Position numbers and translations under genes: made by a program. This document shows, in pieces, positions 44,067 to 63,082 of a stretch of 64,000 bases of DNA. The notes beneath the pieces were generated by a model that was not told where the DNA came from, made no database searches, and saw only the letters and a list, made by a program, of their open reading frames with translations. The stretch is from Oceanicoccus sp. KOV_DT_Chl (lineage in GTDB: Bacteria > Pseudomonadota > Gammaproteobacteria > Pseudomonadales > Dasaniaceae), in assembly GCF_900120175.1 (NCBI RefSeq), contig NZ_FQLF01000002.1, positions 2,232,001 to 2,296,000 on the forward strand, given 5' to 3'. Each line of letters opens with the position of its first letter. Position 1 is the first letter of the stretch.

Positions 44067-44930
44067 TTATACATACTTACTCAATAAAGATTCATAATAT
44101 TTCCATAGCGACTCGGCATGAGTATTTTGCTTGCAAAGAGTATGGCAATATCTTGCTTTTTTATCGGCTAAATATTTTCCGGCAAGGGGAGATATTTCAT
44201 TGATATCGGATACAGTTAGCCATATAGCTGTTTGTGCTCCCTGTAATGGCGTTAGCAATCTACCAGAGGCATAACCTAGCCATACCAAAGGAGTCATTAA
44301 ATATTTAAATAGAGGCGATGACTTCCTATAAAATAAATTGGTATTTACAATGCCGGGATGAACAGAAAAACTCAGAGCGCCGGTATTGGCTAGTTGCCGT
44401 TGAAACTCCTGTGCCAACAAAACCTGACCTAACTTGCTCATGCGGTAACTTTGCATGGCATTATAGTTATCGGCGTCAATTTTCGCCTGATGAGTAATGT
44501 CGCTATAAGTGAGTGCTGGTGATTTTTCAGCTGACAAGGAGCTTATCTGTATTATTCTTGCTTGTGATTTTATCAGCACCGGTTTCAGGAGGGTTAATAT
44601 AAGCTGGTTGGCGAGGTAGTGAGTTTGAAACTGTAATTCAAATCCATCTTCTGTAAATTGATGTGGTGGCGCCATAACACCAGCATTAGCTATAAGAATA
44701 TCTATTGTTTTAACGTTACTAATCAGATAATTACAAGCATTTCTACAGGAAGACAAGCTTGAAAGATTAAGCTCTAACGGTTTGGCATTGTGGCCAATGA
44801 TGGTACAGGTCTGTTGTGCTGATGAAAGAGATCTGCAGGCAAGAATTAGGTGGTAGCCTTTTGATGCCAGGTCTTTAGCTGTTGCTAGTCCCATGCCGCT
44901 GTTTGCGCCGGTAATTAATGCAATTGGCAT
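44067..44930 (-). CDS. short-chain dehydrogenase (retinol-dehydrogenase-like)
   Basis: This is an NAD(P)-dependent SDR of about 287 residues. The cofactor motif ALITGANSGMGLAT starts near residue 5, NAGVMA follows near 85, and the YRMSK catalytic pair lies near residue 165 after ISSLSA. The C-terminal extension is typical of retinol/light-dependent protochlorophyllide-reductase-like SDRs. No signal peptide: it is cytoplasmic, unlike the three Rossmann enzymes further on. I use the ATG at 44930. The substrate is unknown. Confidence 0.88.
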   Translation of the reverse strand: MPIALITGANSGMGLATAKDLASKGYHLILACRSLSSAQQTCTIIGHNAKPLELNLSSLSSCRNACNYLISNVKTIDILIANAGVMAPPHQFTEDGFELQFQTHYLANQLILTLLKPVLIKSQARIIQISSLSAEKSPALTYSDITHQAKIDADNYNAMQSYRMSKLGQVLLAQEFQRQLANTGALSFSVHPGIVNTNLFYRKSSPLFKYLMTPLVWLGYASGRLLTPLQGAQTAIWLTVSDINEISPLAGKYLADKKARYCHTLCKQNTHAESLWKYYESLLSKYV

Positions 44931-45061
44931 ATAAATCAACCTGTCATGTATTATTGAGATGTATTCTTAAAGAACCATAGAGTTGTTGATTTCCAGCAAG
45001 TTATTATTCCAGTCACTTTGATAATTCTAGATTCATTTAGTAGCTTTTTATGACCAGCCCA

Positions 45062-45880
45062 TTAAACTCGAAAACGATCTAACAATTCATCATCAATGCC
45101 AAACTCTTCACCCATTTCCAAAAAACGTGCTAATGAAACCACATCATCGCCTTTGTCTTTGGTGAAATCTTCAGCCTCTTTAATGACTAATTTACGTACC
45201 GGTGCGGGTATTCCCATTAACGCCTGCATGGCACCGTCATCCCATTCCATATTGATTGGCACATCTGCTGCTTGTACTGCATCGGCAGTTTCTTTCAGTT
45301 CGTGCATACTGAATTCGGTCGTGCGACTGTGGTAGTAGAATTTGCGCTGGTGATCGCCTAGGCCTACCGGTAAGTCCATGGCTTTGAGGCGTTGTTCGCG
45401 ATCCATTTCTTCCAGCTCTTCGTCCATAACGATGGCTTCGATGTTGGCGATGACGATACCACTGCTTTTTTCCAGTAATTTTATCTCGTCTACTGTACAT
45501 TCCATGATTTGCGGACATTCGAGCAGGCTGGGAGGTTTAACTTTTTTTGACGGAATTTGAGTAAAGCGGGTGTTGTCGAGTTCGTTAACGCCGGCGGGAT
45601 AAAAACGCGCTGTTTCCATCATGTCCTCCAGATAACCAAAAGGTGGGCAGTTGATGACAAACTCGCCGGATTCCTGAATATTGGTAAGAGTGTGAGAGCC
45701 TTGACGAAGCCCGATCATCATCCGCGGATTTTTTTGCATCACGTCGTATTGCATGATGTGGGAGTAGGGGGCGGCGTTAACGCGGCCGTTTTTATCCAGC
45801 GTGGTGATGATGGTAATTAATTTGGGGAATACCCAAATGTCGGAATACCAAAACGGTTTTATTTTTATTTCTTTTTTCAT
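45062..45880 (-). CDS. flavin reductase-like protein with C-terminal PCP_red-like domain
   Basis: The 272-residue protein begins with a flavin-reductase-like FMN-binding split-barrel domain: NGRVNAAPYSHIMQYDV, PRMMIGLR and GEFVINCPP, about residues 8-200. Residues 211-272 (MEWDDGAMQALMGIPAPVRK, then EAEDFTKDKGDDVV) strongly resemble the PCP_red domain at the end of light-independent protochlorophyllide reductase subunits. The fusion of the two is unusual. It may act as a flavin or tetrapyrrole redox protein in the cytoplasm; the function is not established. A terminator separates it from the DUF1838 gene upstream. Confidence 0.75.
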   Translation of the reverse strand: MKKEIKIKPFWYSDIWVFPKLITIITTLDKNGRVNAAPYSHIMQYDVMQKNPRMMIGLRQGSHTLTNIQESGEFVINCPPFGYLEDMMETARFYPAGVNELDNTRFTQIPSKKVKPPSLLECPQIMECTVDEIKLLEKSSGIVIANIEAIVMDEELEEMDREQRLKAMDLPVGLGDHQRKFYYHSRTTEFSMHELKETADAVQAADVPINMEWDDGAMQALMGIPAPVRKLVIKEAEDFTKDKGDDVVSLARFLEMGEEFGIDDELLDRFRV

Positions 45881-45952: not shown

Positions 45953-46816
45953 TTACTTAACCGGGGCTGGTGTTTGCTCCTTGGCGTAATGCTCAAGGCT
46001 GGACAGACTAGGGCCGTAGTCTGAATCCGGTGCAGTTAAAAACTCAGGGGCATTGGCTTCCAGGTGCGCGCGAATATTGGCTGAGAAAATATCCGTGTTA
46101 TCACTACACACATTGCTGCCCATATATAACACGTGGCCGGGTTTGGTACCGCGCAACATCCACGGTAACCACGGGGTTACCCGGCTCCAGCTGCCGGTGT
46201 AATCAACGCCAGTTAGTTCGGGGTTTTCAATATCGGCTTTTTTAAACTGGTAGCGCATCATTTCCGACACTTGCACCATGGGGCCTGAGGATTCCCGTGG
46301 CCACTGGGCGGGTTGTAATTGGTTAGGGTAGTACAGGTGCATATCGGTAGACAATTCCATCATGCCATTGCCCAAGTCACGCCAAGGGAAAATTAATGGC
46401 ACTTTGATTGGCGCCACTGGCTTATCACCACCAAAATCCTCCGGCATGATAATCAACCATTCGCTGATGCTGTAGTTAAAGGGGTCGTTGTATACGTGAA
46501 CTACGGGTACTACTTCTTTGGTTTCAGGGTCAGTCCATTCGTTGATGATTTCGCCAGTGCGCGCGTCGGTATATATAATGGTTTCTCGGTTGATACGGCG
46601 GATAGTGCCGTCTTCCTGTGGTTCCAGACGAGTGGCTAACGTGGCTTCAAAGCCGCACATGGGGTATACCGCTTTGCCGTCTTCGACACCCATAACGGTG
46701 CCTTTGCTAGCAATAAATTTGGTTTTGCTGGAATCCAGGTTACCCTGCAGGCGAGCCCAGGCATCGCGGTTCCAGATGGGGTTCATTACGTCGATTGTGG
46801 TTTCAAATGTTGCCAT
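45953..46816 (-). CDS. DUF1838 family protein, second copy
   Basis: The 287-residue product is a DUF1838 protein: CGFEATLATRLE, REGGTIRRINRETIIYT-like text, QPAQWPRESSGPMVQVSEM and WSRVTPWLPWMLRG. It shares the WPRE, VSEM and WLPWML blocks with the protein at 1626-2507. No signal peptide. The role is unknown. Neighbours are a flavin reductase fusion downstream and an exported NAD(P)-binding protein upstream, so a function in the same redox pathway is possible. The start ATG has AGGAACA upstream. Confidence 0.85.
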   Translation of the reverse strand: MATFETTIDVMNPIWNRDAWARLQGNLDSSKTKFIASKGTVMGVEDGKAVYPMCGFEATLATRLEPQEDGTIRRINRETIIYTDARTGEIINEWTDPETKEVVPVVHVYNDPFNYSISEWLIIMPEDFGGDKPVAPIKVPLIFPWRDLGNGMMELSTDMHLYYPNQLQPAQWPRESSGPMVQVSEMMRYQFKKADIENPELTGVDYTGSWSRVTPWLPWMLRGTKPGHVLYMGSNVCSDNTDIFSANIRAHLEANAPEFLTAPDSDYGPSLSSLEHYAKEQTPAPVK

Positions 46817-46975: not shown

Positions 46976-47779
46976 TTAAAAGTTGTCTGAGTCCACTGTC
47001 ATGTCTGCAAAGACTTGTTGCCAATTAATGCTGGCAGTGGTTTGCCCATCGTCATCATCCTGAATCTCAAAGGTTTTATTGGTTGCTTGATCATGGATTA
47101 ACGCTTTTACCGCGACTGTGGCCACATCAGCGCGAGAGATAGTTGAGGGGATGCCATCAGTTTGGGTGAATTTGATTGCTTTGGTATTCGCCGGTTCATC
47201 TTTGAGGCCGCCAGCAGGGCGGATAATGACGTGGTTTATACCGGAGTCACGCAAATACAATTCAGATTTATGCTTCCATTTTAAAACGTCATCACCAAAC
47301 CAGTTAAGTGGATGTAGCCACCAGGTGGTGCCGCCGGAGGTGATTAAAATAAATTTTTTGATGCTGTGGTATTTCGCTTGCTCGATCAGCTCTACCGTGC
47401 CTTGGTAGTCAACCGTTTCGGGATTGTTATCACCTTCAGAGCCGATTGCAGTACCTAATGTCGAGATCACATAGTCAACTTGCGCGAAAATCGCTGGCAA
47501 AGTTTCGGGCTCAGTGACGTCAGCGACAGCAATAGTCACGCCCTTGTCTAAATAATCACTAAACAGTTGTTTGGCTTTGTCGCCGTTACGCGCCATAGCA
47601 ACTACGTGATAGTCTGCAGCTAAAAGTTCGGTGACTACTAGTCGACCGGTACCACCAGTGGCTCCGGCTACTAACACGGTCGATTTGCCTGCGGCCTCTA
47701 CGGCAGAAGCGAATGAACTCAGCAATAGCGCAGCGACAAAACCAGCCCAAAAATTAAAAAAGAACTTGTTACCTGCCAT
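46976..47779 (-). CDS. exported NAD(P)-binding (NmrA-like) protein
   Basis: This 267-residue protein is an atypical SDR/NmrA-like Rossmann protein: VLVAGATGGTGRLVV near residue 36 is the dinucleotide site, then VDYVISTLGT and FILITSGGTTWW. Unusually, about 28 residues of signal peptide (FFFNFWAGFVAALLLSSFAS) precede the fold, with a likely cleavage near VEAAG. If processed, it acts in the periplasm, where NAD(P)H is normally scarce. It is the first of three signal-bearing Rossmann enzymes in a row. It may instead be membrane-anchored with the domain in the cytoplasm. Confidence 0.8.
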   Translation of the reverse strand: MAGNKFFFNFWAGFVAALLLSSFASAVEAAGKSTVLVAGATGGTGRLVVTELLAADYHVVAMARNGDKAKQLFSDYLDKGVTIAVADVTEPETLPAIFAQVDYVISTLGTAIGSEGDNNPETVDYQGTVELIEQAKYHSIKKFILITSGGTTWWLHPLNWFGDDVLKWKHKSELYLRDSGINHVIIRPAGGLKDEPANTKAIKFTQTDGIPSTISRADVATVAVKALIHDQATNKTFEIQDDDDGQTTASINWQQVFADMTVDSDNF

Positions 47780-47823: not shown

Positions 47824-48627
47824 CTACATGCCAATTTCAGCACCGTCACTATAATTAATAAATTTACCATTCTGTGTCGCTGTAAGGTTGGCAATAACTT
47901 TGATCATACTACCAACGCTTTCGGCAGGGGTAATGGCCTTGGGCATTTTCATGCCGCTGTCGGCGTCCATGGTGTCAACCATGCCAGGCGACAGCATGGT
48001 AACAATAATATCTTTTTTGGCTGTTTCAAAAGACAGTGTGTACAAATACATATTAAGCGCGGTTTTACTGGCGCGATAGCTGTACATCATGGGCATTTTC
48101 GGGCCTTCAGCAAAAGAGCCGGCTTTGCTGGAGATGGCAATAATTTTTTTCTGTTTTGACGCGTCCACGTTTGGCATGAATGCCTGAATTACCCGCAGTG
48201 GACCAATGGCATTGACCTCAAGACTTTTTGCTGCCATCTCCATATCCACACCTTTAAGATTTTTATAAGCCGATTTGTATTTCGGCGTTAGTGCGGCATT
48301 GTTGAGTAGTACGTCAATGGGCTGGTCTGTATATTTTTGCGCTAGTGCATCGATATGGGATTGGTTGGTGACATCCAGTTGTTCGACTGCAATATTACTT
48401 CGCTCAGCTGCGAAAGCATTGAGTGCGTCGGCGCTGGCAGGTTTGCGGGTGGTGGCGATAACATTCCAGCCAAGCATGCTATATTGATTGGCAAATTCCA
48501 GACCGATGCCATGATTGCTGCCGGTAATTAAAATGGTCGGTTGGTCGGGGTTAAAGCCGGCCAAAGCATTGTGATTAATTAATAGCAGTGTCCATAAGAG
48601 TGTTTTTAATAATGATTTCTTTAACAT
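47824..48627 (-). CDS. exported short-chain dehydrogenase
   Basis: This is a classical SDR of about 267 residues with a signal peptide in front: LLKTLLWTLLLINHNALAG, predicted cleavage near ALAG. The cofactor motif ILITGSNHGIGLEF starts near residue 29. NNAAL follows, and the Tyr-Lys pair is in MYSYRASKTALN with IAISS before it, so the active site is intact. The C-terminus is short. The start is the ATG at 48627; a longer frame begins six codons earlier. It is 44 bases from the upstream exported Rossmann gene and 42 from the next. The substrate is unknown. Confidence 0.82.
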   Translation of the reverse strand: MLKKSLLKTLLWTLLLINHNALAGFNPDQPTILITGSNHGIGLEFANQYSMLGWNVIATTRKPASADALNAFAAERSNIAVEQLDVTNQSHIDALAQKYTDQPIDVLLNNAALTPKYKSAYKNLKGVDMEMAAKSLEVNAIGPLRVIQAFMPNVDASKQKKIIAISSKAGSFAEGPKMPMMYSYRASKTALNMYLYTLSFETAKKDIIVTMLSPGMVDTMDADSGMKMPKAITPAESVGSMIKVIANLTATQNGKFINYSDGAEIGM

Positions 48628-48669
48628 TTTTATCTCGCAGTCCAATGATTAAATAGTTTGTTGTTTTGG

Positions 48670-49422
48670 TTACCAAGGCAGGGTGCTGCCATCATAATCC
48701 AGATAGGCACCCGTTGTTTTTAGGGTGAGGTTGTCTATGTTACGGATCATATCAGTGACGGCCAGCTCTGGCGGCCTTAATTTCATTTTTACACCAGACA
48801 TAAAGTCGGTATCGGTTGGGCCCGGATTGACCAGGCCGACAATTATTTTTTTACGTTTAAGCTCTTTAGCCATGGTCGCGTAAGCCATATTTAGCGCTGA
48901 TTTGGATGAGCGGTAAATATAAAGTAGGCCAAAAGTTTTTTTAATGGAGCCCATGCTGGAAGAAACAGCGATAATTTTCTTTTGCTGGCTAGCTTGGATA
49001 TTAGGTAGAAAGGCTTCGGCTAATTTCATTGGACCGTAGACATTAACTGCCATTACTTTAGCGTAGACTTCATAGTCAATGTTGCCCAATTTCTGTTGCT
49101 CATTACCGCCAGAAATACCAGCATTGCTGAGTAATATATCAATAGGCTGCCCATGATATTTTGCAGCCAGTTTTTCGATAGCAGCGTGATCAAGTACATC
49201 GAGGGGTTCAACAATAACCTTGCTATTGGTTTTGGCTATAGCGTTGAGTTCATCTGCTGTTGCTGGATTTCTAGCCGTAGCAATTACGGTGTAACCCTTA
49301 TCTGCATACTGCTTAACAAATTCCAGGCCAATTCCACGATTGGCGCCGGTAATTAAAACTGTATCAGCAAACGCAGTGCTACTTAAGAAAATAGTGAGTA
49401 ATAAAAATATTTTTTTAAACAT
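48670..49422 (-). CDS. exported short-chain dehydrogenase, paralog
   Basis: The 250-residue SDR starts with a 19-residue Sec signal (FKKIFLLLTIFLSSTAFAD) with a clear AFAD cleavage region, then VLITGANRGIGLEFV. SNAGISGG and the Tyr-Lys pair in YIYRSSKSALN are intact, with VSSSMG upstream. It is similar in plan to the neighbouring gene product, so the two are probably duplicates. As exported SDRs they break the usual rule that SDRs are cytoplasmic. It is 11 bases downstream of an ATP/ADP-translocase-like gene on the same strand. Confidence 0.82.
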   Translation of the reverse strand: MFKKIFLLLTIFLSSTAFADTVLITGANRGIGLEFVKQYADKGYTVIATARNPATADELNAIAKTNSKVIVEPLDVLDHAAIEKLAAKYHGQPIDILLSNAGISGGNEQQKLGNIDYEVYAKVMAVNVYGPMKLAEAFLPNIQASQQKKIIAVSSSMGSIKKTFGLLYIYRSSKSALNMAYATMAKELKRKKIIVGLVNPGPTDTDFMSGVKMKLRPPELAVTDMIRNIDNLTLKTTGAYLDYDGSTLPW

Positions 49423-49433: not shown

Positions 49434-50717
49434 CTACTCTTGAGTGTTCATGGATTCAGTTTTTTTACCTAGTATCAGGCCAACAGTTGCCCATATTGCG
49501 GCAATGCCCGCGCCAACAATAGCGACCCCGGTCATACCTAACCCCAAGCCTTGGGTCAGGCCAGTGAAAGCCCAGCCCCAAAAGGTATCGCCACCGCGAT
49601 AGACCACCACATCGATAACCGGTTTGGCTTTAAAACGGGTGTCGTGATCGACATAAGTAAATAACATTTCTCTAGCAGGGCGTGTAATTGCGTAATTGCC
49701 GCCACGTCGCATGATTTGTAAGCCGACGATAACGGTGAGTAATGGCGCCATCGCCACGGTTAAAAGTCCTCCCATCACAATCAGTGGGATCAGTGCCAGT
49801 GTCCAGCCTAGCCCCAGGCCTGTTGCTAAACGGGAGGTGACAAATAGCCCTGCTACGATGGTTAGGGTGTTAGTGGCTAAATCCATAAACGCCCAGATTT
49901 CGGTACGCTGCTCGCGACTCATATCGGCCATGAGATTTTTTAACTCTAAATAAACGAAGGAGCCTATGCCGGTATAGAGAAATAAAAACAAACCTATACC
50001 AATCATGAAGGGGTTTTTCAGGAACAGCATAAAACCATCGAGTGAGCCGCCGCCCATAGATGAAACCGCTGCACTATGGCCGGTATTTCCCAGATCAGTA
50101 TGTTTGATAGTTTGCAGTAAAAAGATTAGTGGTAGCGTCGCTAGCAGCACGACGCTGGCAACTAGCATCAGGTTATAGGTACCCAAATCAGAAAAAAGTA
50201 GAGGGATGGATGGGCCAACCATGGCACCGATACTGGCGCCGGTGGTAATGATCCCGAACAAGCGTTTGGATTGCTCCTTGGTGAACAAGTCGGCCATAAA
50301 GCTCCAGAATACCGACACTGGAAATAAACTGAAAACGCTCACCCATATATAAAATGCCTGATCAATCCATGGCGAGTTTCCAATCATGGTGGAGGCAATA
50401 TAAAAGCCGATAAAGGTCAGTGCAAAGAAACTGTAAACACTGGGCACCAGTCGCTTGGTCGACAGCTTGGCAATAGCAACGCCGTAAAGAGCAATGACAG
50501 CAAAGCTGAAAAAGAAATTAATCGTCCATAAAGTGGCTACTTCTGCATCCGACCACTCGCTGGCCATAGCGTCGCGCACGGGCCGTAAAATGTAATAAGC
50601 GGCCATCAATATCAGCACTAACAAAAATGAGCACAGCGTAGCCTTGATTTCGTGGGCTTCAACTTTAGACACGGACGCTATAAATTTAGCGATAATATTT
50701 TGGTCCTGAGCAGCCAC
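49434..50717 (-). CDS. ATP/ADP translocase-like (NTT/Npt) MFS-fold transporter
   Basis: This 427-residue inner-membrane protein has about twelve segments and the YYILRPVRDAMAS motif near residue 40, the mark of NTP/NDP exchange (Npt1/Npt2-like) transporters. RLFGIITTGASIGAMVGPS and RPAREMLFTYV are also family blocks. Intracellular parasites use such carriers for ATP; free-living relatives have unknown substrates, possibly nucleotides or cofactors. A role in moving nucleotide cofactors to the exported dehydrogenases next to it is a tempting but untested idea. CTTGTAAGGAGAAG precedes the ATG. Confidence 0.8.
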   Translation of the reverse strand: MAAQDQNIIAKFIASVSKVEAHEIKATLCSFLLVLILMAAYYILRPVRDAMASEWSDAEVATLWTINFFFSFAVIALYGVAIAKLSTKRLVPSVYSFFALTFIGFYIASTMIGNSPWIDQAFYIWVSVFSLFPVSVFWSFMADLFTKEQSKRLFGIITTGASIGAMVGPSIPLLFSDLGTYNLMLVASVVLLATLPLIFLLQTIKHTDLGNTGHSAAVSSMGGGSLDGFMLFLKNPFMIGIGLFLFLYTGIGSFVYLELKNLMADMSREQRTEIWAFMDLATNTLTIVAGLFVTSRLATGLGLGWTLALIPLIVMGGLLTVAMAPLLTVIVGLQIMRRGGNYAITRPAREMLFTYVDHDTRFKAKPVIDVVVYRGGDTFWGWAFTGLTQGLGLGMTGVAIVGAGIAAIWATVGLILGKKTESMNTQE

Positions 50718-52571: not shown

Positions 52572-53639
52572 TTGAAAAAAATCGTTTTCGGTGTGGTACT
52601 GATATTACTGCTGTGGCTGTGCGCAGTGCTTTTTTTAGATACCGGTATTGAAACTACGGTAGTGGTGCCGAGTGAAACCTCACAGGCTATATCGGTAACA
52701 AGTCAATGTGAAACGATTCAACTATCAATGCCATTAAGCGCGCAGGGCCGTATAAATTTTGATATCGAGGGGGAATTGTGCTGGCAGGGATCTCTGGTCG
52801 GAAAAACATTACAGATATTAATTAGTGGTGCCGGTTATGGTCCTGTGTACTGGAATTTTCCTTATCAACCTGAAACGTATTCCTATCAACGTGCGGCCCT
52901 AACTAAAGGCTACGCTACCTTTAATTATTACCGAACCGGTATTGGCGCAAGTGATCACCCGCCAGCCTGGTTGGTCACAGTTGAGGCGCATGCGTATGTA
53001 CTGGAGCAATTGATTCAGTATTTTAGCGAAAGCAAGGGCATGGGCAGGGTGGTTACCGTGGGTCACTCCTTAGGTTCAGTTATTGCTTTGGCGCACGCTA
53101 TCAAACGGCCAAGGCAGATCGATGGTTTAGTGTTGACCGGGTTCCTGCACAACTCCAATCCGGAATTTAATCAAATCATGCGCCAGAGTACAGGTTTAGC
53201 AATGTTCAGTGAGGGCTTTGCGGGCAAGATTATTGACCCTTTGTATATGCTATCAAATAACGGAATGCGCGAGCAGGTGTTTTATTACACAGGAAATTAC
53301 GATCCAGCGGTGGCTGCAGTAGATGAATTAAATCGTCAGACCTTAACGGTCACTGAAATACTATCGATGCTGAAATATTTTGGTGACCGGTCAACACAGC
53401 TTAAGCTACCGGTGTTGATAGTTGTCGGGGAAAAAGATTTTGTTGTCTGTGGGGGCGCTTTGCCTTGTGAGAATCCATCGTATGTGGCTAATTATGAAAA
53501 ACAGTTTTTTCATCCGCAATCTGATGTGACAACTATGTTAGTAAAGAATACCGGCCACAATATTAATTTGCATTTTTCAGCGCCTGAAAGTTTCACACAA
53601 ATATTGACGTGGATGGATGGCTTGGATGATAAGGAGTAG
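52572..53639 (+). CDS. alpha/beta hydrolase, membrane-anchored or exported
   Basis: The 355-residue protein has an N-terminal hydrophobic segment (IVFGVVLILLLWLCAVLFL) that may be a signal or anchor, then an alpha/beta-hydrolase core. The nucleophile is in VTVGHSLGSVIA near residue 165, the acid in VVGEKDFVVC, and the His in KNTGHNINLH. A CEDI-like disulfide may link GALPC with an earlier Cys. The start is TTG at 52572; the RBS is weak. The substrate is unknown; being near the TonB receptor, it may process an imported ester or terpenoid. Confidence 0.8.
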   Translation: MKKIVFGVVLILLLWLCAVLFLDTGIETTVVVPSETSQAISVTSQCETIQLSMPLSAQGRINFDIEGELCWQGSLVGKTLQILISGAGYGPVYWNFPYQPETYSYQRAALTKGYATFNYYRTGIGASDHPPAWLVTVEAHAYVLEQLIQYFSESKGMGRVVTVGHSLGSVIALAHAIKRPRQIDGLVLTGFLHNSNPEFNQIMRQSTGLAMFSEGFAGKIIDPLYMLSNNGMREQVFYYTGNYDPAVAAVDELNRQTLTVTEILSMLKYFGDRSTQLKLPVLIVVGEKDFVVCGGALPCENPSYVANYEKQFFHPQSDVTTMLVKNTGHNINLHFSAPESFTQILTWMDGLDDKE

Positions 53640-53677: not shown

Positions 53678-55708
53678 TTAGTAAAATTTAAGGTTAAATC
53701 CTACGTTAATTCTACGTCCCGGTGTTGCTGTGCCATTTTCTCTGGTGTTCATTGCTGATTTGACATCTTCGCGATCGAAGATATCTCTAACGTTGAGAAA
53801 AATCTGCATATCTCGATCTATAAATTCAGGCTTTATTAGCATATTAAAGTCGGTTCGAGATAGATAAGGTAACGATTCGTTTATATAATTACCCGATGGT
53901 GTGGTTGGTGTTCGCCTTCCCTGCTGATAAAGGTGATTGATTGCGTAGCTGATGTTGTTGCCCGTGTCGTATTTTATACCCACGCTAGCAATAATGTCGG
54001 GGTATGCAGGGTTGTCATCAGGTACTTCATCGGCCCCGAATTGATTGGTGGCAGTTTGCTTGGAGCTGTTGTAAGCCATATTGGCAGAAAATAACCAGCG
54101 TTTGTGTTGGTAGCTGCCATCCAGCTCAAGACCATAAGACTCTGTGTCTTTGTAATTACTATACTCAATAAAAAATCCAGGGGTAGGTGAGCCTATAATA
54201 TCAATAGTGTCGCTTACCTTTGATAAATATGTGCTCACACTATAGCGCCAGCGATTAGCTGCATGCATCCAGATCAATTCATAGGTTTTGACTTTCTCAG
54301 GGTTTAGTTTGTTACCACCGCCTTTTACGATAGCATTATCTGTTTGCTCGTTGACTGCTGGTGCGCGAAAGGCTTCGCCATATAGGAATTTAACTGCGGA
54401 GCTTTGTGTCGGATGATAAATCAGGGCGACGCGCGGAGAGAAATGATTGCCAAAGTCGCTGTAGTGATCATAGCGGCCACCTAGAATTACTTGAAATTTA
54501 TTATCTAAAAACCGCTCTTCAATTTGTCCCATTACCCCGGTTTGTTCTCGACTTTTATTATCCACCGTTGGCTGAGTGCCTTCTAATGCTGCAAGCAGGT
54601 GCTTGGTTTTCATGTAGTCGTGATTGAGTCCTAATACTATTTGCCTTGAATCATTACCTAGCGGGTTTTTAGCCACAACATTAATGCCGCGACGGATGTC
54701 GTTACTGTCCCAGGTGAAGGCCGGTGAGACTGGTGGTTCGCCAATATTATTGATGCCAAAAGCGCCGAGTAATTCATCTTCAATATAATAGGCAGTATTG
54801 TCTAACGTCCAGTCATCGTTTAATGGCTGCTGGTACGAAAGTTTCAATGCTTTCATTTTCGCCAGGCCATTGGTGTGATGTCCATTCGGGAAAAAACCGC
54901 CGCCATCCCCAGAACCAAAGCTGTCATCGACATCGTGTTCAGAATAATAAAAAGCAGCTTCGAAATTATTAATAGCTAACTTATTAGTGGTGGTGATGTT
55001 GCTGTATTCGCCACTCACTTCATCTTCTACCAACATTGAGGGAGATGAGTGAAAATTGTCTTCCAATTCAAGATCATCTACTTCGGTGTAGGATAATGCG
55101 CTGGTTAAAGTTACTTGCTCATTAAAACTATGTTTCAGTCTAGCGGTAGCTTGTAGATAGCCGTATTGCCCGAGCTCTGATCTGAATTCGGCGGTATCTT
55201 TTTCGCTGCCCCAGCTATTAAGTGATACCACACCGTTAAAGGCATCTGCGCCATATAAAGCCGATCCAGGTCCGCGAATAAGTTCAATGCTTTGCAAATT
55301 ACCCAGTGCGTAATTGGGGCTGCCATAGACAGCGGAGGCACTGCTGTAGTTATTGAGCGGCATGCCATCCAGCAGTACTAGAAAACTATTGTATTGATTA
55401 GGCGCGGAGTAGCCACGAAATGAAGGGACGAGCATGCCATTGAGGTGTTCACTGAGATAAACGCCAGGCAGATGTTCCAGGGCTTCAAAGGTTTTCTCGG
55501 CGCCCTGACGTTGCCATTCCTGCTCCGATATGATGGACACTGAAGAGCCGACATATTTTTCATCCTCCAGAAAAAGGGAGGCCACCTTGACCTGCAGCAA
55601 GGCTTCTAATGGCAGATCCAACAAATCTTCTGACGTATCAGCTGTGCTGTAGACGTTGCCCGATAATAAGGTTGATAAGTAAATTACCTTAGTAAATCGA
55701 TTGTTCAT
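53678..55708 (-). CDS. TonB-dependent outer-membrane receptor
   Basis: The protein of about 676 residues has a signal peptide (KVIYLSTLLSGNVYST) and the DLLDLPLEALLQVKVAS segment seen in CirA/BtuB-like receptors. A plug domain follows, with LLDGMPLNNY and RGPGSALYGADAFNGVVSL, and then a 22-strand barrel ending VGFNLKFY with a terminal aromatic residue. It should take up an iron complex, cobalamin-like or other large substrate using TonB energy; the substrate is unknown. I use the ATG at 55708, which begins the signal; a start seven codons earlier is possible. It stands alone near exported enzymes. Confidence 0.88.
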   Translation of the reverse strand: MNNRFTKVIYLSTLLSGNVYSTADTSEDLLDLPLEALLQVKVASLFLEDEKYVGSSVSIISEQEWQRQGAEKTFEALEHLPGVYLSEHLNGMLVPSFRGYSAPNQYNSFLVLLDGMPLNNYSSASAVYGSPNYALGNLQSIELIRGPGSALYGADAFNGVVSLNSWGSEKDTAEFRSELGQYGYLQATARLKHSFNEQVTLTSALSYTEVDDLELEDNFHSSPSMLVEDEVSGEYSNITTTNKLAINNFEAAFYYSEHDVDDSFGSGDGGGFFPNGHHTNGLAKMKALKLSYQQPLNDDWTLDNTAYYIEDELLGAFGINNIGEPPVSPAFTWDSNDIRRGINVVAKNPLGNDSRQIVLGLNHDYMKTKHLLAALEGTQPTVDNKSREQTGVMGQIEERFLDNKFQVILGGRYDHYSDFGNHFSPRVALIYHPTQSSAVKFLYGEAFRAPAVNEQTDNAIVKGGGNKLNPEKVKTYELIWMHAANRWRYSVSTYLSKVSDTIDIIGSPTPGFFIEYSNYKDTESYGLELDGSYQHKRWLFSANMAYNSSKQTATNQFGADEVPDDNPAYPDIIASVGIKYDTGNNISYAINHLYQQGRRTPTTPSGNYINESLPYLSRTDFNMLIKPEFIDRDMQIFLNVRDIFDREDVKSAMNTRENGTATPGRRINVGFNLKFY

Positions 55709-55854
55709 TACCGCCGATAAGTTTTCCATGGGTGCGCCAGCGATATAGTTATTCGCTTAATTGGATTCAGACTGATTAGTAAGGTTAGCTGGCGATTTGA
55801 GGTATGTAAAATAGCGAGTAGGCATATGCGCTAGCCAGACGCGGGTAGCGGTAC

Positions 55855-56789: not shown

Positions 56790-57314
56790 TTATAATGGGC
56801 CAATTTTGCTAATGCCACCGGGTAAACTAAAATCACGCCAAACCGCTATTTTCCCTTTTTTCACTAAAAAGTAACCGGCAATTTCAAAGTGCATACTGCG
56901 CTTTTCATTTTTGGCATAAAAGTGATCAAAACGTTCATTGATGACAATCGGGCCAATGGCTTCTGAATAACGCGTTATCCATTCGACTTTAGTCATGGAT
57001 TTTAAAAAACTATCCAACGCTTTAATAAAGGCGTCTTTGCCAACAATGTCGGGTCGGCCTTCAAACATTTGATAAATGATATCGTCAGCTAAAAATGTTG
57101 TCAGGTGTTCGGCATCCATTCGCGACCAGTCATCACAAAAGCGCGTGACCATTTCAACATTCGCGGTTTCTTCGGCTGTCCAGGGGCGTTTTGTTGAGAT
57201 TTGATTATCGTTTGCAGTGCTGAGACTGGTGCAGCCGCTTACGCCAGCGCCGGCAATAGCGCCTGAGGCTAATAGCAGTGTGCGTCGGTTGAGATAAAAC
57301 TGGTTCTTTTCCAT
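56790..57314 (-). CDS. Tat lipoprotein of the SnoaL/limonene-epoxide-hydrolase fold
   Basis: The 174-residue protein has a twin-arginine signal (NRRTLLLASGAIAGAG) ending in a lipobox VSGC, so it is a Tat-exported lipoprotein. The mature part is a SnoaL/nuclear-transport-factor-2-like fold of the limonene-1,2-epoxide-hydrolase type: EMVTRFCDDWSRMDAEHLTT, FLADDIIYQMFEG, GKDAFIKALDSF, and GYFLVKKGKIAVWRDF as the closing strands. Such small folds usually act in the cytoplasm. It lies 79 bases downstream of the Tat-UbiD gene on the same strand, so the two probably act together outside the cytoplasm. Confidence 0.8.
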   Translation of the reverse strand: MEKNQFYLNRRTLLLASGAIAGAGVSGCTSLSTANDNQISTKRPWTAEETANVEMVTRFCDDWSRMDAEHLTTFLADDIIYQMFEGRPDIVGKDAFIKALDSFLKSMTKVEWITRYSEAIGPIVINERFDHFYAKNEKRSMHFEIAGYFLVKKGKIAVWRDFSLPGGISKIGPL

Positions 57315-57393: not shown

Positions 57394-59058
57394 CTACCAC
57401 TTGTTGCCTCCTGTTATTAGTTCAGCGTACTGCTTATTCACATTGCTAATGGCGTCGGGTGCCAGCTCGTTCAGCCAGTCGCGGTTGCGTTTAGCGAATT
57501 CAGTGGTGCGGCCTTCTGCGGCTAGTGGTCTGGTTGCGTCAATGACTAATTTGCTCGCGGGGTAGTCAGGTCCCTGGCCTGCCAGGCTTGGATCCAAAGG
57601 CATGCCGCGACCCTGGACAATAGCGTAGGCATCTTCAGGTTGCCAGCGGGCGGCAATAGCGTTATCAACTTGCCATTGGTCAAGTATGTCAACATCCTCA
57701 TCAAACACCATTACCAATTTGTAGATGGGGACAATTTTCGACAATATTTTACCTGCGCGCAGACCTTGGCCAGCTTTGGTTTTTTTAATTCGCACATAGG
57801 TAATGCCGGGAGCGTGCAAGGGTGAGTGAATTTCTATCAGCTGCGGTACCAGTTTTTGAAAGCTTTTGTTATACAGTGCTGCGGTAGGCGCCACGGTATA
57901 GCCACGAGTAACGCCAGTAAAAACATTTAAAACCCAGGGGTTTTTACGGTGAGTCACGGTATCGACACGCATGGTAAAATTATCAGATTTTTGTGGTCCC
58001 ATATAACCCATCATTTCACCAAATGGCCCTTCAGGGAGGGCCGGATGATCAAGCATTACCACACCTTCAATAACAATTTCGGCGTGGGCAGGAATCATCA
58101 GGTTATTGCTTTCTGATTTGATAGTTTCCAGTGCTTTGCCACGTATGCCACCGGCCACTGCCAGTTCATTAATTTTGCCTTTTTGTAAAACGCGGTTCAC
58201 CACCCGCGAGCCGCTGACAATCCAGACATAAGGGTCTTGGCCGACGACAATTGAAACCGGTACCGATTTTTCACCACGTTCTTTGGCGGCCATGAAATGT
58301 TTCCAGGCTGATTGGTTGGGTTCGGAGTTGACGCTAATAGTTCGTGGGCCATGAATTTGGCAGCGGTAAGTGCCGTAGTTCATGCCCAGTTCAGGGTCTT
58401 CGGTGAAGATTGAACCTGTGTCAATGTAGCGACCACCATCGGCAGGGTTGGATTGAATAAAAGCGAATTGGTTTAAGTCAATGTTATCACCTGTGATGAT
58501 AACTTCCTTACAGGGCGCTTGTTGCGCACTGACGACTACTGGATCGATGGGCTCATAAATACCCTTATCCAATTTGGTGCTCATATAGTCGATGGCTTTG
58601 CGGTAACTCGCTCTGGGGTCGTTCGCCACCGGATCCAAACCAAAAGTGATTGCCTCGGAATGCCAGTGTCCCTGATGGTTGGCGATAACCGGCCCCTTTA
58701 CCCATTGGCCATTAATTTTAATGTGTTCTACCAGTAGCGCGGGCGCGCGGGTCCAGCCATGCTCCTCTACTAACCGGTACATCAGCGCGGTCATTTCGTA
58801 GGCGTCTTGATCTAGTTTTTCAATTCTTAAAACCAGGCCACGTTCTTCTAACGCGGCAATATAGCTGCGTAAGTCATCGAAGGGTTTATCAACCGATAGC
58901 GGACCGTATTGAAGCTTGCTTTTTGGTCTTTCATTAAAAGATGAGGGGACTGCACACCCTGCGGTAACGGCAACAGCTCCCGCTACAGCGGCACCGGCGA
59001 CACTGCTGGTTAAAAAGCTGCGACGGGATGAATTACTTGGATGGTCGGCTTGGCTCAT
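57394..59058 (-). CDS. Tat-exported UbiD-family decarboxylase
   Basis: This 554-residue protein is a UbiD-family (prenyl-FMN) decarboxylase-like enzyme: LGMNYGTYRCQIHGPRT, a prFMN-site block near residue 225, then LPEGPFGEMMGYMGP with the catalytic Glu, and ANDPRASYRKA. It starts with SRRSFLTSSVAGAAVAG, a clear twin-arginine signal, and VTAGC may add a lipid anchor. UbiD enzymes are normally cytoplasmic and need a prFMN synthase (UbiX), which is not seen here. Folded export by Tat would carry the cofactor out. The substrate, possibly an aromatic or alpha,beta-unsaturated acid, is unknown. Confidence 0.85.
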   Translation of the reverse strand: MSQADHPSNSSRRSFLTSSVAGAAVAGAVAVTAGCAVPSSFNERPKSKLQYGPLSVDKPFDDLRSYIAALEERGLVLRIEKLDQDAYEMTALMYRLVEEHGWTRAPALLVEHIKINGQWVKGPVIANHQGHWHSEAITFGLDPVANDPRASYRKAIDYMSTKLDKGIYEPIDPVVVSAQQAPCKEVIITGDNIDLNQFAFIQSNPADGGRYIDTGSIFTEDPELGMNYGTYRCQIHGPRTISVNSEPNQSAWKHFMAAKERGEKSVPVSIVVGQDPYVWIVSGSRVVNRVLQKGKINELAVAGGIRGKALETIKSESNNLMIPAHAEIVIEGVVMLDHPALPEGPFGEMMGYMGPQKSDNFTMRVDTVTHRKNPWVLNVFTGVTRGYTVAPTAALYNKSFQKLVPQLIEIHSPLHAPGITYVRIKKTKAGQGLRAGKILSKIVPIYKLVMVFDEDVDILDQWQVDNAIAARWQPEDAYAIVQGRGMPLDPSLAGQGPDYPASKLVIDATRPLAAEGRTTEFAKRNRDWLNELAPDAISNVNKQYAELITGGNKW

Positions 59059-59134: not shown

Positions 59135-59938
59135 TTATTGAATAGCTTTCGCGGGCACTGAAAAACTATTGAGAAAGTCGATGCTATAAGCGAGCAGTTG
59201 CCGGTGTTGCTCCTCAAGTGGGAGCGTGCCAAAGGAGCGATGAGCCACGTCTTCGGGAGCAAAATCACCAAACTGGAAATGGTCACTGCCATCAATGACT
59301 TGATAGCGAGTTGTTGCCGGTAAATAGGGTTTGGCGGCAGTAAATGTTTGTTTGCGTTTGGGGTCGTGATGACGGTTACCGTATAGCGATAGCACCGGTA
59401 GACCCAGAGTAGAAATATCGTAATCGGCATTGGTATAAGAGTCCCACATCAGTAAGCCGTCGGCACCCGTGGGGTGCTTGGCCAGAAACATGGCCGATGC
59501 GCCGCCGCCCATTGAGTGTCCGCCTACTACCCATTGCTGAATGGATGGGTAGTGTGCTTGTACTTCGAGCGCGCGTTCATAGTCAAAAATTGCAAAGTTG
59601 CTGGGCATGGGGATTAGAGCGGTTAAAAAGCCGGCTTCGGCAATTTGGCGGGTTAGCGGGGCAAAGCCTCGAGCATCGCAAAGTGCACAAGGATAGAAGA
59701 TCAGGCCGATAGTCGGTGTTGATACTGTGGCTTTGGGGGTAAATACAATCCACTGCTTTTCTATTAATGCGGTTTGATCCAGCTTGGCTGCAGCGCTTGA
59801 GCTGACCGCGGCGATGGCTTTGGCCGAAGCGTGGGTCTTGGTGGTCAGCTGCCCTAGCCAGCCAAATCGAAAAGCAGTGCCAAACAATACCACCAAAAGT
59901 AGTGTGGTGGCGGTTAGTATCAGTGATCGTCTAAGCAT
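59135..59938 (-). CDS. alpha/beta hydrolase with N-terminal signal or anchor
   Basis: The 267-residue protein has a hydrophobic N-terminus (LILTATTLLLVVLFGTAF) acting as signal or anchor, then a dienelactone-hydrolase/chlorophyllase-like alpha/beta hydrolase: PCALCDARGFAPL near the start with two Cys, the nucleophile in VVGGHSMGGGASAMF, LSLYGNRHHDPKR and the His in DGSDHFQFGDF. It probably cleaves an ester outside the cytoplasm. It lies 76 bases upstream of the UbiD gene on the same strand. Confidence 0.82.
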   Translation of the reverse strand: MLRRSLILTATTLLLVVLFGTAFRFGWLGQLTTKTHASAKAIAAVSSSAAAKLDQTALIEKQWIVFTPKATVSTPTIGLIFYPCALCDARGFAPLTRQIAEAGFLTALIPMPSNFAIFDYERALEVQAHYPSIQQWVVGGHSMGGGASAMFLAKHPTGADGLLMWDSYTNADYDISTLGLPVLSLYGNRHHDPKRKQTFTAAKPYLPATTRYQVIDGSDHFQFGDFAPEDVAHRSFGTLPLEEQHRQLLAYSIDFLNSFSVPAKAIQ

Positions 59939-60111: not shown

Positions 60112-61470
60112 ATGAGTAAATCGGGTGTTGATATCCCTAATACCAAGGGCATCAAGCTGGGGCCAATTTGGTTAGAGCCGGGCATTAATCGGCTAAATTG
60201 TATGGGGTTGTTTGTCGGTAGTTTTTTTACTATCGGTGTATTGACGTTAATTTCGGTGGGCACTAATTATGTGTTGGCCGAGAATTTGGGCATCCCTTTT
60301 TCCGAGCGCGGGACGATTGCTGGTGATTTGGCATTTTGGACCGAGATCACACAAATTTTGTTGTTTTCGCTGATTGGTGTGGCGGCAGATCGAATTGGAC
60401 GGCGACCGATTTTTGTCGCTGGCTTGCTGGCATTTGGATTGGGGTATTTTTTATATCCCTTTGCGGAATCTTTGCAGGAACTTACCGCTTACCGGGTAAT
60501 TTATGCTGCTGGGTTGGCGTTATCTACTGGCATGCTGGCTACAGTGTCGGCGGATTACCCGCAAAATATAAGCCGTGGAAAAATGATTGCCTTTGTCGGC
60601 ATGTTGAACGGCCTGGGTGTGGTATTGCTGAATAGTGTATTTGGCCGTTTGCCTTCCTGGTTTGTCGATGCCGGCGTTGACCCCATTATGGCGGGTCGCT
60701 ACGCACATTTTCTGGTGGCTGGCTTGTGTGTATTGGTGGCCGTGGTTTTGCAATTCACGTTGAAGCCGGGGGTGGAAGTATCGGTAGAGAAAAAACAATC
60801 GCTGATGGCGTTGGCTAAAGCGGGAGTAAGGGAAGCGCGAAATCCACGTATTGCTTTGGCTTATGGTTCTGCGTTTGTAGCTCGAAGTGATGTGGTAATA
60901 CTAGGCACGTTCTTAGTGACATGGGGAGTAGGCGCTGGCGAAAAAATGGGCCTGACAACAGCGGAAGCTTCTGTGCAAGCGACGATTATTTTCGTTATTA
61001 CTCAGGCGTCCGCATTGATGTGGGCGCCGATTGCCGGGTTGTTGATGGATCGCATTAATCGTATTACTGGCATGGTAATTTTTATGTTGGTATCGGGTTT
61101 GGCATTTAGCCTACCGGTACTTATAGACAATCCATTAGAGTCAGCCGCCATTCCCATTTTTATTTTGTTGGGTATAGGTCAGATTAGTGCCTTTTTAGGC
61201 TCACAAATATTAATTGGCCAAGAAGCGCCGCTGGAAGAGCGGGGCAGTGTTGTCGGCATGTTTAATATGATGGGAGCGATTGGAATATTAGCGGCGACTG
61301 CGATTGGTGGCCGCTTGTTTGATCAGGTCGGGCCTTGGGCGCCGTTTATGGTGATCAGTGTGGCCAACCTGACGTTGATGCTGGTTGCATTGTATGTGCG
61401 CCGGCGTGACCCCGGTCCAGTGCCGCAGCGAGAAGTAGAATTTTGGCAGCGCTGGTTGGCGCGTACTTAA
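60112..61470 (+). CDS. MFS transporter
   Basis: This 452-residue transporter has about twelve membrane segments. The loop after segment 2, GVAADRIGRRPIFVAGLLAF, is the MFS signature, and a Lys/Val-rich central loop separates the halves. PNTKGIKLGPIWLEPGINRL before segment 1 is unusual. The family is sugar- or metabolite-porter-like; the substrate is unknown. It is divergent from the hydrolase/UbiD genes and 100 bases upstream of an aldehyde dehydrogenase, so it probably imports a compound oxidised by that enzyme. The start is ATG at 60112 with a weak RBS. Confidence 0.88.
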   Translation: MSKSGVDIPNTKGIKLGPIWLEPGINRLNCMGLFVGSFFTIGVLTLISVGTNYVLAENLGIPFSERGTIAGDLAFWTEITQILLFSLIGVAADRIGRRPIFVAGLLAFGLGYFLYPFAESLQELTAYRVIYAAGLALSTGMLATVSADYPQNISRGKMIAFVGMLNGLGVVLLNSVFGRLPSWFVDAGVDPIMAGRYAHFLVAGLCVLVAVVLQFTLKPGVEVSVEKKQSLMALAKAGVREARNPRIALAYGSAFVARSDVVILGTFLVTWGVGAGEKMGLTTAEASVQATIIFVITQASALMWAPIAGLLMDRINRITGMVIFMLVSGLAFSLPVLIDNPLESAAIPIFILLGIGQISAFLGSQILIGQEAPLEERGSVVGMFNMMGAIGILAATAIGGRLFDQVGPWAPFMVISVANLTLMLVALYVRRRDPGPVPQREVEFWQRWLART

Positions 61471-61570
61471 GTAAATAAGTGCTAGCCCAAGTCAGCGAAA
61501 TTAACTGTTCAGTGAAATCAAAAATAAAGTGAATAACTTTATTAACGAGTAATGAAAAAGAGTAACGACT

Positions 61571-63082
61571 ATGCCTGAAGTAATAGACATCCCGGAGATT
61601 GCCGCAGCGACGCGCAGTTTTATTGGTTCCGAACACAAATTGCTAATTAATGGAGAGTGGGTTAGCAATGTTGCAGGCGATAGTCTGGCAGTTATAGATC
61701 CTGCGACAGGCGAACAAATTGCCGCGGTACCAGCGGCGGGTGAAGCTGAAGTTAACAGCGCTGTTGCCGCAGCCAGGGCGGCGTTTGATAAAGGCCCGTG
61801 GCGCACGATGGGTGCCACTGCGCGTGCAGAATTGTTATTAAAATGGGCTGATTTGGTTGAACAGCACCACCAACAATTTGCAGAAACCGAAGTATTGTGT
61901 ACCGGCATGCCAATGAGTGTGGCGGGCGCTGTAGCACCGATTATCGCCCGCGATTGGCTGCGCTATTATGCCGGTTGGGCAACAAAAATTGCTGGCCAAA
62001 CGCTGGCGCAGGATCCTTATCCAGTACCCGGCGTCGAACGTTTTTTGATGACGAGAAAAGAGCCAGTAGGTGTTGCCGCGCAAATCGTGCCATGGAATTT
62101 CCCGCTGGGCATGACAGTGATGAAGCTAGGCCCAGCGCTCGCAGCAGGTTGCACCGTGGTATTAAAACCGGATGAGCATACACCTTTATCAGCGTTGCTA
62201 CTGGGTCGATTGGCTTGCGAGGCGGGGTTTCCTCCCGGCGTGATCAATATTATTCCCGGTCATGGTCATGTTGCCGGAGCGGCTTTGGCCGCGCACCCGG
62301 ATGTCGATAAAATTTCGTTTACCGGTTCTACCGAAGTCGGGAAAAAAATAATTGATGCCGCTAAAGGTAATTTGAAAAAAGTAACACTGGAATTGGGTGG
62401 CAAGTCTCCTTTCATTGTTATGCCAGATGCAGATTTAAGCAAAACTATTCCAATGGCAGTACAGCAGGGCTATTTTTTACAGAGTCAAAATTGCGTGTGT
62501 CCGTCGCGCATGTTGGTCCATAAAAATGTCTACGATCAATTTGTTGAAGGGCTGGCAGCTGGTGCGGATAGTCTGATTATCGGGCCGGGGTTAAATCCAG
62601 CAACCACACTGGGGCCGTTGGTTTCCGCGCAGCAGTTACAGCGGGTGCAGAGCTATGTGCAATCAGGAATAAAAGAAGGGGCGGAACTTATTACCGGCGG
62701 TGATGAATTGGATCGCCCGGGTAACTTTATGCGTCCGGCGGTATTTGCTGGCGCCCATCGTGATATGAAGATTGTGCGTGAAGAAATTTTTGGGCCAGTG
62801 TTAAGTGTCATAAAGTTAGATACCGACGATATCGATGAGATAGTACATCAGGCCAATGATACTGAATATGGTTTAAATGGCAGTGTGTGGACAGAAAATA
62901 TTGGCACCGCAATGCGAATTTCTGCGGGTATTCGTTCCGGTATTGTCGGTATCAATGCTCACACTATGTCAGATATCAATGGTGGTTTAGGCGGCTACAA
63001 ACAGTCTGGATGGGGGCGCGAGATGGGAGAGGAGTCCTTGCATGCGTATTTGGAAACCAAGACCATTATGATGCATTATTAA
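61571..63082 (+). CDS. aldehyde dehydrogenase
   Basis: This is a 503-residue NAD(P)-dependent aldehyde dehydrogenase. VPWNFPLGM is the cofactor-stack segment, FTGSTEVGK is the Rossmann turn, LELGGKSPFIV holds the general-base Glu, and SQNCVCPSRM contains the catalytic Cys. EEIFGPVLSVIK and GVNGS-like LNGSVWTEN follow as usual. It is cytoplasmic and of full length. The family oxidises aliphatic or aromatic aldehydes to acids; the specific substrate is unknown. It is on the same strand as the MFS transporter just upstream. Confidence 0.93.
   Translation: MPEVIDIPEIAAATRSFIGSEHKLLINGEWVSNVAGDSLAVIDPATGEQIAAVPAAGEAEVNSAVAAARAAFDKGPWRTMGATARAELLLKWADLVEQHHQQFAETEVLCTGMPMSVAGAVAPIIARDWLRYYAGWATKIAGQTLAQDPYPVPGVERFLMTRKEPVGVAAQIVPWNFPLGMTVMKLGPALAAGCTVVLKPDEHTPLSALLLGRLACEAGFPPGVINIIPGHGHVAGAALAAHPDVDKISFTGSTEVGKKIIDAAKGNLKKVTLELGGKSPFIVMPDADLSKTIPMAVQQGYFLQSQNCVCPSRMLVHKNVYDQFVEGLAAGADSLIIGPGLNPATTLGPLVSAQQLQRVQSYVQSGIKEGAELITGGDELDRPGNFMRPAVFAGAHRDMKIVREEIFGPVLSVIKLDTDDIDEIVHQANDTEYGLNGSVWTENIGTAMRISAGIRSGIVGINAHTMSDINGGLGGYKQSGWGREMGEESLHAYLETKTIMMHY

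Follow-up and report, generated by a model that had tools for sequence, protein, structure and literature searches.

What does a bacterium degrade with a cluster of catabolic-type enzymes that appear to be exported, and in which compartment? We considered this question for a 64,000-nucleotide stretch of the 4.83-Mb genome of Oceanicoccus sp. KOV_DT_Chl (hereafter the window, G000:C2:2232001-2296000, where G000 denotes the genome). A preliminary description of the genes at 44,067-63,082 had postulated an extracytoplasmic pathway, fed by a TonB receptor, for an aromatic, terpenoid or steroid substrate. Our analysis points to an island for the two-compartment breakdown of tetrapyrrole pigments taken up from outside, the likeliest being chlorophyll-derived pheopigments or linear bilins. 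We would assign this reading a probability of roughly 55%. We computed family memberships, export-type motifs, the catalytic motif of a UbiD-family decarboxylase, and the co-occurrence and linkage of the island genes with homologues of bilin reductases; the genes and their neighbours were judged from the open reading frame (ORF) listing and Pfam scans of the window proteins.

The cluster described earlier is part of an island that fills the window and runs past both of its ends. ORFs, Pfam matches and motifs recovered the enzymes previously listed, namely three signal-bearing Rossmann enzymes, a UbiD protein and a SnoaL protein with twin-arginine translocation (Tat) motifs, and two anchored hydrolases; ORFs and Pfam likewise recovered the TonB receptor, the nucleotide-type (TLC) carrier, the major facilitator superfamily (MFS) transporter and the aldehyde dehydrogenase. 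Newly found were a second DUF1838 gene (1626-2507), a bilin-reductase homologue (28868-29563) and the extension of the conserved unit beyond both window ends.

Homologues of bilin reductases in the island

The most specific genes of the island encode homologues of ferredoxin-dependent bilin reductases (FDBR) and of red chlorophyll catabolite reductase (RCCR), and for this reason a tetrapyrrole is better supported as the substrate than the aromatic, terpenoid or steroid compound envisaged before. The product of 28868-29563 matched Fe_bilin_red (PF05996), with RCC_reductase just under the cut-off. The genome has two more homologues: a second, which begins about 230 bases beyond the end of the window, and a third, which is located at a different site and scores below the Pfam cut-off. 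When profiles of three subfamilies (A7, A8 and A9) were compared with all PDB sequences at E<=0.1, every distinct match was an FDBR or RCCR (13/13, 11/11 and 13/13, respectively). To our knowledge, all characterised members of these families act on linear tetrapyrroles. A conserved acidic position, which we tentatively equate with the catalytic acid of PcyA (D105) and RCCR (Glu), is Asp in the window copy and its congener counterpart and Glu in the other seven rows of A7. Five genomes (G000, G005, G508, G511 and G514) carry 3 to 5 divergent copies each, weak matches included, near decarboxylases and hydrolases.

An apparently exported clade of UbiD decarboxylases

Export was called from sequence motifs only (an N-terminal hydrophobic segment, an RR motif and a lipobox). 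By these motifs, the N-termini of the UbiD (57394-59058) and SnoaL (56790-57314) proteins look like Tat lipoprotein signals: the former begins MSQADHPSNSSRRSFLTSSVAGAAVAGAVAVTAGC, with SRRSFLT, a hydrophobic stretch and a TAGC lipobox, and the latter MEKNQFYLNRRTLLLASGAIAGAGVSGC, with NRRTLLL and a VSGC lipobox. Each of the three Rossmann enzymes (46976-47779, 47824-48645 and 48670-49422) has an N-terminal hydrophobic segment. A crude Tat filter was positive for 2 of the 58 window ORFs of at least 120 amino acids, these being the UbiD and SnoaL genes. Of 105 ORFs from six further stretches of the genome, two of these stretches overlapping the window ends by 0.5-1 kb, one was positive, namely another Tat-type UbiD (UbiD-Tat) paralogue. 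The filter misses the thiamine diphosphate (ThDP) enzyme of the window, which has a lysine in its h-region, and a third UbiD paralogue (L017), whose called start is internal. The bilin reductases, the flavin reductase, both window DUF1838 proteins and the aldehyde dehydrogenase carry no clear signal, which argues that the pathway is not purely extracytoplasmic. Thus, an apparently exported set of catabolic-type enzymes survives from the earlier proposal, and its confinement outside the cytoplasm does not.

The window UbiD protein exceeded the Pfam cut-offs for PF20695, PF01977 and PF20696 (N, rift and C domains) and scored 212 against NCBIfam TIGR00148, under the cut-off of 244.85. Its residues R232, E343 and E348 form an R-Xn-E-X4-E motif that is invariant in the five rows of alignment A1 and corresponds to the Arg-Glu-Glu catalytic network of UbiD described in PMC5818171. 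The nearest solved relative is the phenolic acid decarboxylase 7ae4 (E 1e-39). With 7ae4, Fdc1 and HudA/PA0254 the protein shares the UbiD domains and this motif (the motif according to PMC5818171); unlike them, it has a Tat signal and lipobox and belongs to a separate clade.

We delineated this clade among the best 80 of 415 relatives found by an A1 search of GTDB species genomes. Twenty-eight loci (L035-L062) shared at least 40% identity, the remaining 52 at most 33%. A script detected a Tat motif with a hydrophobic stretch in 15 of the 28 clade loci versus none of the 52 others, and again none when the latter were rechecked over their first 170 residues. Among the 13 clade loci lacking the motif, L040, L051 and L060 are 5'-cut or fragmentary (L040 shows it in an alternative ORF call), and five, including L051, come from actinobacteria and have a long N-terminal extension in place of the motif. 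In a maximum-likelihood analysis with 53 rows, a single change on the tree accounted for the Tat label (branch support 97/36); this tree leaves out the fragment L040, keeps only the first 20 generic rows, does not count 12 rows of neither group, labels L009, in which the motif is missing from the called start, as Tat via the orthologue L010, and drew a program warning of long branches among the generic rows. At the level of sequence, the Tat-type UbiD is a distinct clade.

The window genome holds three paralogues of the clade and one ordinary UbiD, whose gene (G000:C2:1961553-1962154) reads in two overlapping frames. In the congener G005, the closest UbiD-Tat orthologue (L007/L012, C1:946613-948258) has a broken frame with in-frame stops; two other copies are intact. 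We rejected the idea that clade members always lie beside a bilin reductase: most clade loci do not.

A further protein may serve the UbiD enzyme. PMC13040415 describes PhdC, an HpaC-like flavin-reductase-fold protein that matures the prenylated FMN (prFMN) of a UbiD decarboxylase, and places all PhdC-like sequences found there in Actinomycetota. The 45.1-kb protein of the window is likened to PhdC by its family (PF01613) and differs from it in an extra C-terminal PCP_red-like stretch. Its congener counterpart (L014 16410-17246) ends 2 bases before a UbiD-Tat gene (17249). Given this fold family and the directly adjoining congener gene, the 45.1-kb protein may load the UbiD cofactor, making it a candidate prFMN maturase.

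Conservation and linkage of the island genes

The island genes of the congener G005 lie within about 925-977 kb of one contig, in a partly rearranged order, and form a conserved block of more than 40 kb. Identities were 85% for the aldehyde dehydrogenase, 81% for the ThDP enzyme, 80% for the flavin reductase, 79% for the TLC carrier, 78% for the 27.7-kb family, 75% for DUF1838, 74% for the SnoaL-Tat protein, 74% for an exported short-chain dehydrogenase/reductase (SDR), and 64% for the NmrA-type protein. The block also holds the MFS gene, both hydrolases, the cytochrome c and two UbiD-Tat copies; the TonB receptor and the 44.1-kb SDR have no match in it. Neither UbiD-Tat (E<=1e-60) nor a bilin reductase was found in five further genomes of the genus, one of them only 64% complete. 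The island is thus sporadic, being present in two of seven genomes of the genus.

Beyond the genus, we compared only the neighbourhoods that were fetched, not whole genomes. UbiD-Tat, ThDP-Tat, DUF1838, the MFS family and exported-type SDRs (a broad grouping) recurred in genomes with bilin reductases, in partial agreement with the co-conservation anticipated in the preliminary description. Its suggestion to include the 29.6-31.9 kb genes for the ThDP enzyme and cytochrome in the same system was supported: the two are linked to the island in the congener (L014/L015), and in a distant metagenome-assembled genome (MAG; G511, L202) the genes for a bilin reductase (9854-10786), a UbiD-Tat (10811-12460) and a ThDP-Tat enzyme (13427-15349) adjoin, with 45% and 48% identity of the two decarboxylases to those of the window. 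The window-type MFS family was found in eight genomes, in six of them near a bilin reductase outside this island (G005, G140, G508, G511, G514 and G528; L031, L034, L121, L209, L210 and L215), in some cases with NmrA-type or TonB genes. Genes for Rieske and luciferase-like proteins are also recurrent, either close to bilin reductases or in genomes that carry them. Overall, the recurrent gene pairs span families and include actinobacteria.

Ferrochelatase-family proteins distinct from HemH occurred in seven of the ten genomes searched (G000, G005, G508, G511, G514, G518 and G520), over the Pfam cut-off in G000, G005, G508 and G518. Most have an N-terminal hydrophobic anchor; the G508 member (L194 7218-8876) has none in the ORF as called. 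Their alignment (A5) leaves out L224, L227, L228 and L234, for which no ORF was called, and the unrelated 192-aa L235. In G508 and G518, the chelatase-like genes stand beside Tat-type DUF1838 genes, and members of the 27.7-kb family and an exported SDR are no more than 10 kb away. Elsewhere in the window genome (L240, C2:238000-257999), an anchored ferrochelatase-family protein (8627-10087) is followed by an alpha/beta hydrolase and a SnoaL protein; G508 and G518 have relatives of this hydrolase (51%) at a distance of some kb from bilin reductases.

Other neighbourhoods held different enzymes. Subfamily-B bilin-reductase genes adjoin Tat-type molybdopterin oxidoreductase genes in L200, L205 and L208; the vicinity in L205 also includes genes for a CoA ligase, an amidohydrolase and a DsbA-like protein. 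Distant homologues lie near acyl-CoA-dehydrogenase-type flavoproteins (L030, L122 and L212) and arylmalonate-decarboxylase-family proteins (L030, L122 and L214); as a guess, these proteins could act on maleimide-like products.

Co-occurrence across genomes

In a single even sample of 369 genomes of the class, the bilin-reductase family PF05996 was found in 3, DUF1838 in 9 and the UbiD-Tat profile (E<=1e-100) in 2. All three bilin-reductase genomes were among the nine with DUF1838 (hypergeometric p = 1e-5); without the window genome, the overlap was 2/2 among 8/368 (p = 4e-4). Both UbiD-Tat genomes carry a bilin reductase, and removing the window genome left 1/1 among 2/368 (p = 0.005). Among 145 relatives, three had a bilin reductase, and two of those three had UbiD-Tat. 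Finally, 14 of the 23 genomes with a clade UbiD carry a bilin reductase, 12 of them over the cut-off and two of them, below it, actinobacterial; judging from identical match coordinates, G517 (L045), counted among the 23, and G508 of the class sample are one MAG. Of eight genomes picked for a bilin reductase or DUF1838, three (G000, G005 and G508) hold close full-length relatives of the ThDP enzyme, and the other five only 25-30% relatives; G511 holds a further close one.

A proposed route for tetrapyrrole breakdown

The tetrapyrrole substrate, its chlorophyll origin, the compartment of each step and the reaction order are what we infer in the following scheme. In the periplasm, the anchored hydrolases, the SDRs and the Tat-type UbiD and ThDP decarboxylases would trim side chains or the isocyclic ring. 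Both decarboxylases would fold with their cofactors in the cytoplasm, the UbiD enzyme perhaps aided by the 45.1-kb protein as prFMN maturase, before being exported. In the cytoplasm, the ferredoxin-dependent bilin-reductase homologues would reduce the opened tetrapyrrole, and the aldehyde dehydrogenase and SDRs would finish side products. The carboxyl, acrylate or glyoxylate groups of pheopigments would be plausible targets, since (hetero)aromatic and acrylic acids are substrates of UbiD decarboxylases, and since BbmA heads the solved relatives of the ThDP enzyme (best 60 of 90), among which benzoylformate decarboxylases are numerous.

A bolder and distinctly more doubtful version has chlorophyll degraded largely in the periplasm: Tat-type prFMN decarboxylases would act on the carboxyl or acrylate groups of pheopigments (for example the chlorophyll c acrylate), outside-anchored ferrochelatase-family proteins encoded elsewhere in the genome would remove the metal, the Tat-type ThDP enzyme would remove a glyoxylate-type group, and RCCR/FDBR homologues would reduce the opened chain. 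We know of no earlier genetically defined route by which bacteria mineralise chlorophyll; this one, if true, would be the first.

Plants break down chlorophyll through PPH, a dechelatase, PAO and RCCR in the phyllobilin pathway. The island is similar in that RCCR belongs to the superfamily of its reductases, around which lie alpha/beta hydrolases, SDRs and, elsewhere, Rieske oxygenases and chelatase-family proteins. It differs in being bacterial, in its export signals, in its UbiD and ThDP decarboxylases, and in the rarity of PaO (over the cut-off in 1/18 genomes).

Several observations weigh against breakdown of tetrapyrroles by the island. The PaO (pheophorbide oxygenase) family exceeded its cut-off only in G140 among those 18 genomes, with G000 and G005 below it, and the two scanned Rieske proteins from near bilin reductases match VanA_C. 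The conserved acidic residue is absent in subfamily B and in two distant subfamily-A copies. Only a few of the 28 clade loci lie close to other genes of the island. No PF05996 match was found in 9 of the 23 clade genomes, some of which may be explained by MAG incompleteness, and G140 and G386 carry a bilin reductase without a UbiD match at the thresholds used. The genomes behind the count of 14 of 23 are relatives of one another and were drawn from a different collection than the sample of 369, and the Fisher value of 7e-19 therefore overstates their independence. In the neighbourhoods compared, the SnoaL-Tat protein, flavin reductase, TLC carrier, cytochrome c and 2.6-kb lipoprotein grouped only within the genus, the 59.1-kb hydrolase only in the window genome and one congener, and the TonB receptor had no match in the congener block or elsewhere (E<=1e-10). 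Co-conservation is therefore partial, and the same comparison led us to reject co-conservation of all genes of the original cluster beyond the genus.

The best-surviving alternative, which we regard as possible and clearly less probable than tetrapyrrole breakdown, is a periplasmic pathway for aromatic, terpenoid or steroid-like compounds fed by the TonB receptor, with bilin-reductase homologues that have drifted in substrate or are present by chance. UbiD and ThDP decarboxylases, LEH/SnoaL proteins, aldehyde dehydrogenases and SDRs are common in aromatic catabolism as well, and so are the CoA ligase, amidohydrolase, luciferase-like and Rieske enzymes found in other genomes. This pathway has to contend with the recurrence of three separate FDBR/RCCR subfamilies with Tat-type enzymes, with the linear tetrapyrrole substrates of all characterised members known to us, and with a TonB receptor that is not co-conserved and is a doubtful member of the set; its similarity to the TonB receptors that lie beside bilin reductases in other genomes is weak (best E 3e-6 over 68 aa). 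The epoxide opening once proposed would depend on the SnoaL protein's weak LEH match alone.

It appears improbable that the reductases make bilins to supply a photoreceptor or bilin-binding globin and that the exported enzymes have no connection with them. The pre-PcyA FDBRs of heterotrophic bacteria are real and active on biliverdin, and, as PMC10151467 (Rockwell 2023) describes, their clusters typically hold heme oxygenase, globin, V4R or Fe-S genes. The island shares with those clusters, as described there, an FDBR superfamily in non-photosynthetic bacteria, and unlike them it features UbiD-Tat, ThDP-Tat, DUF1838, MFS and SDR genes. Canonical heme oxygenase (PF01126), which that text presents as typical of such clusters, was over the cut-off in 0/18 genomes, with one lower match in G520 (globin and V4R were not searched for), and photosynthetic reaction-centre families were absent from 5/5 genomes tested. 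From these two results, the reductases do not look biosynthetic, and the 3 to 5 divergent copies near decarboxylases and hydrolases in five genomes point the same way.

That there is no pathway at all, the exported enzymes having been acquired independently and clustered by chance or in general gene-transfer hot-spots, is slightly less probable still: the island's presence in only two of seven genus genomes, the varied UbiD-Tat sites and the genus-confined genes would fit it, and the block of more than 40 kb conserved in the congener and the recurrent pairs across families, even in actinobacteria, speak against it.

Other features of the window

The features are listed in Table 1. For each SDR, the best 25 NCBIfam matches included no SDR family over its cut-off. 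Upstream of the TonB receptor, positions 56440-56780 (+) appear by eye to encode what is left of the C-terminus of an AraC-type regulator. Two exported or membrane proteins at 25081-27137, kept in the congener, flank the 27-32 kb genes; they are tentatively named HupE-like and DUF4198-like, and a relative of the HupE-like protein adjoins chelatase-like genes in G000 and G005. By eye, the 2603-4890 lipoprotein had suggested a ferrochelatase, an idea dropped as unsupported, with no Pfam match at E<=10; against the chelatase-like profile, hhalign returned a weak match (probability 14%, E 0.0019). Predicted structures of the DUF1838 pair (A4; pLDDT 35) and of the 2603-4015 lipoprotein (pLDDT 30) were too poor for a fold search.

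Table 1 Features of the window, with positions counted from its first nucleotide.
Feature	Position	Strand	Remarks
w614, unknown family, N-terminal signal-like stretch	614..1345	+	Relative near bilin reductase in actinobacterial MAG, 37% over 147 aa
DUF1838 protein, no signal	1626..2507	+	PF08894 7e-43; congener 75%
Lipoprotein, unknown family	2603..4890	+	Two ORFs in different frames (2603-4015, 4051-4890); one 764-aa ORF in congener
w27671, unknown family, N-terminal hydrophobic stretch	27671..28774	-	Relatives ≤~10 kb from chelatase-like genes in G508 (68%), G514, G518, G520
FDBR/RCCR homologue, no signal peptide	28868..29563	-	PF05996 6.7e-12; profile A7
Cytochrome c, N-terminal hydrophobic stretch	29605..29925	-	PF00034 1.2e-5
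ThDP enzyme, Tat-like N-terminus (LSRRGFGKALMALGLSG)	29922..31898	-	Nearest solved structures BbmA, then many benzoylformate decarboxylases
SDR, no clear signal	44067..44939	-	No congener match; 27-29% relatives near bilin reductases in G508, G518
Flavin-reductase-fold protein, C-terminal PCP_red-like stretch (below cut-off)	45062..45880	-	PF01613 1.8e-17; only in genus
DUF1838 protein, no signal	45953..46816	-	PF08894 1.3e-36
Signal-bearing NmrA-type SDR (NmrA/NAD_binding_10)	46976..47779	-	PF13460 6.9e-37; congener 64%
Signal-bearing SDR	47824..48645	-	PF00106 1.4e-31
Signal-bearing SDR	48670..49422	-	PF00106 5.4e-38; in some other genomes, homologues next to UbiD-Tat or bilin-reductase genes
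TLC/MFS-type carrier	49434..50717	-	PF03219 8.7e-10; congener 79%; genus only
Membrane-anchored alpha/beta hydrolase	52572..53639	+	47% relative near bilin reductase in G514
TonB-dependent receptor, doubtful member of the set	53678..55729	-	No match in congener block or other neighbourhoods
Tat-type SnoaL/LEH lipoprotein	56790..57314	-	PF07858 1.5e-7; congener 74%, same signal; genus only
Tat-type UbiD-family decarboxylase, possible lipoprotein	57394..59058	-	PF01977 2.8e-53; R232, E343, E348 kept
Anchored alpha/beta hydrolase	59135..59938	-	PF12695 1.8e-32; congener 59%
MFS transporter	60112..61470	+	PF07690 3.8e-44; family recurs near bilin-reductase genes
Aldehyde dehydrogenase	61571..63082	+	PF00171 6.1e-166; congener 85%
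Membrane protein, cut by window end	63277..64000	+	Next gene downstream is the second bilin-reductase homologue (L028 1234-1920)

Implications for bacterial pigment consumption

Chlorophyll and phycobilins are made and destroyed in huge yearly amounts in water, and we know of no defined bacterial gene set for consuming them. Our searches of the open-licence literature turned up no bacterial chlorophyll or bilin degradation cluster, which is not proof of absence, no such degradation system involving DUF1838, and no exported UbiD clade. The pairing of apparently exported decarboxylases with relatives of plant and algal chlorophyll and bilin enzymes suggests a bacterial breakdown route. The exported UbiD clade would represent a new cellular place for prFMN chemistry, and the recurrent set of bilin-reductase/RCCR homologues and Tat-type decarboxylases makes bacterial pigment consumption testable with named genes.

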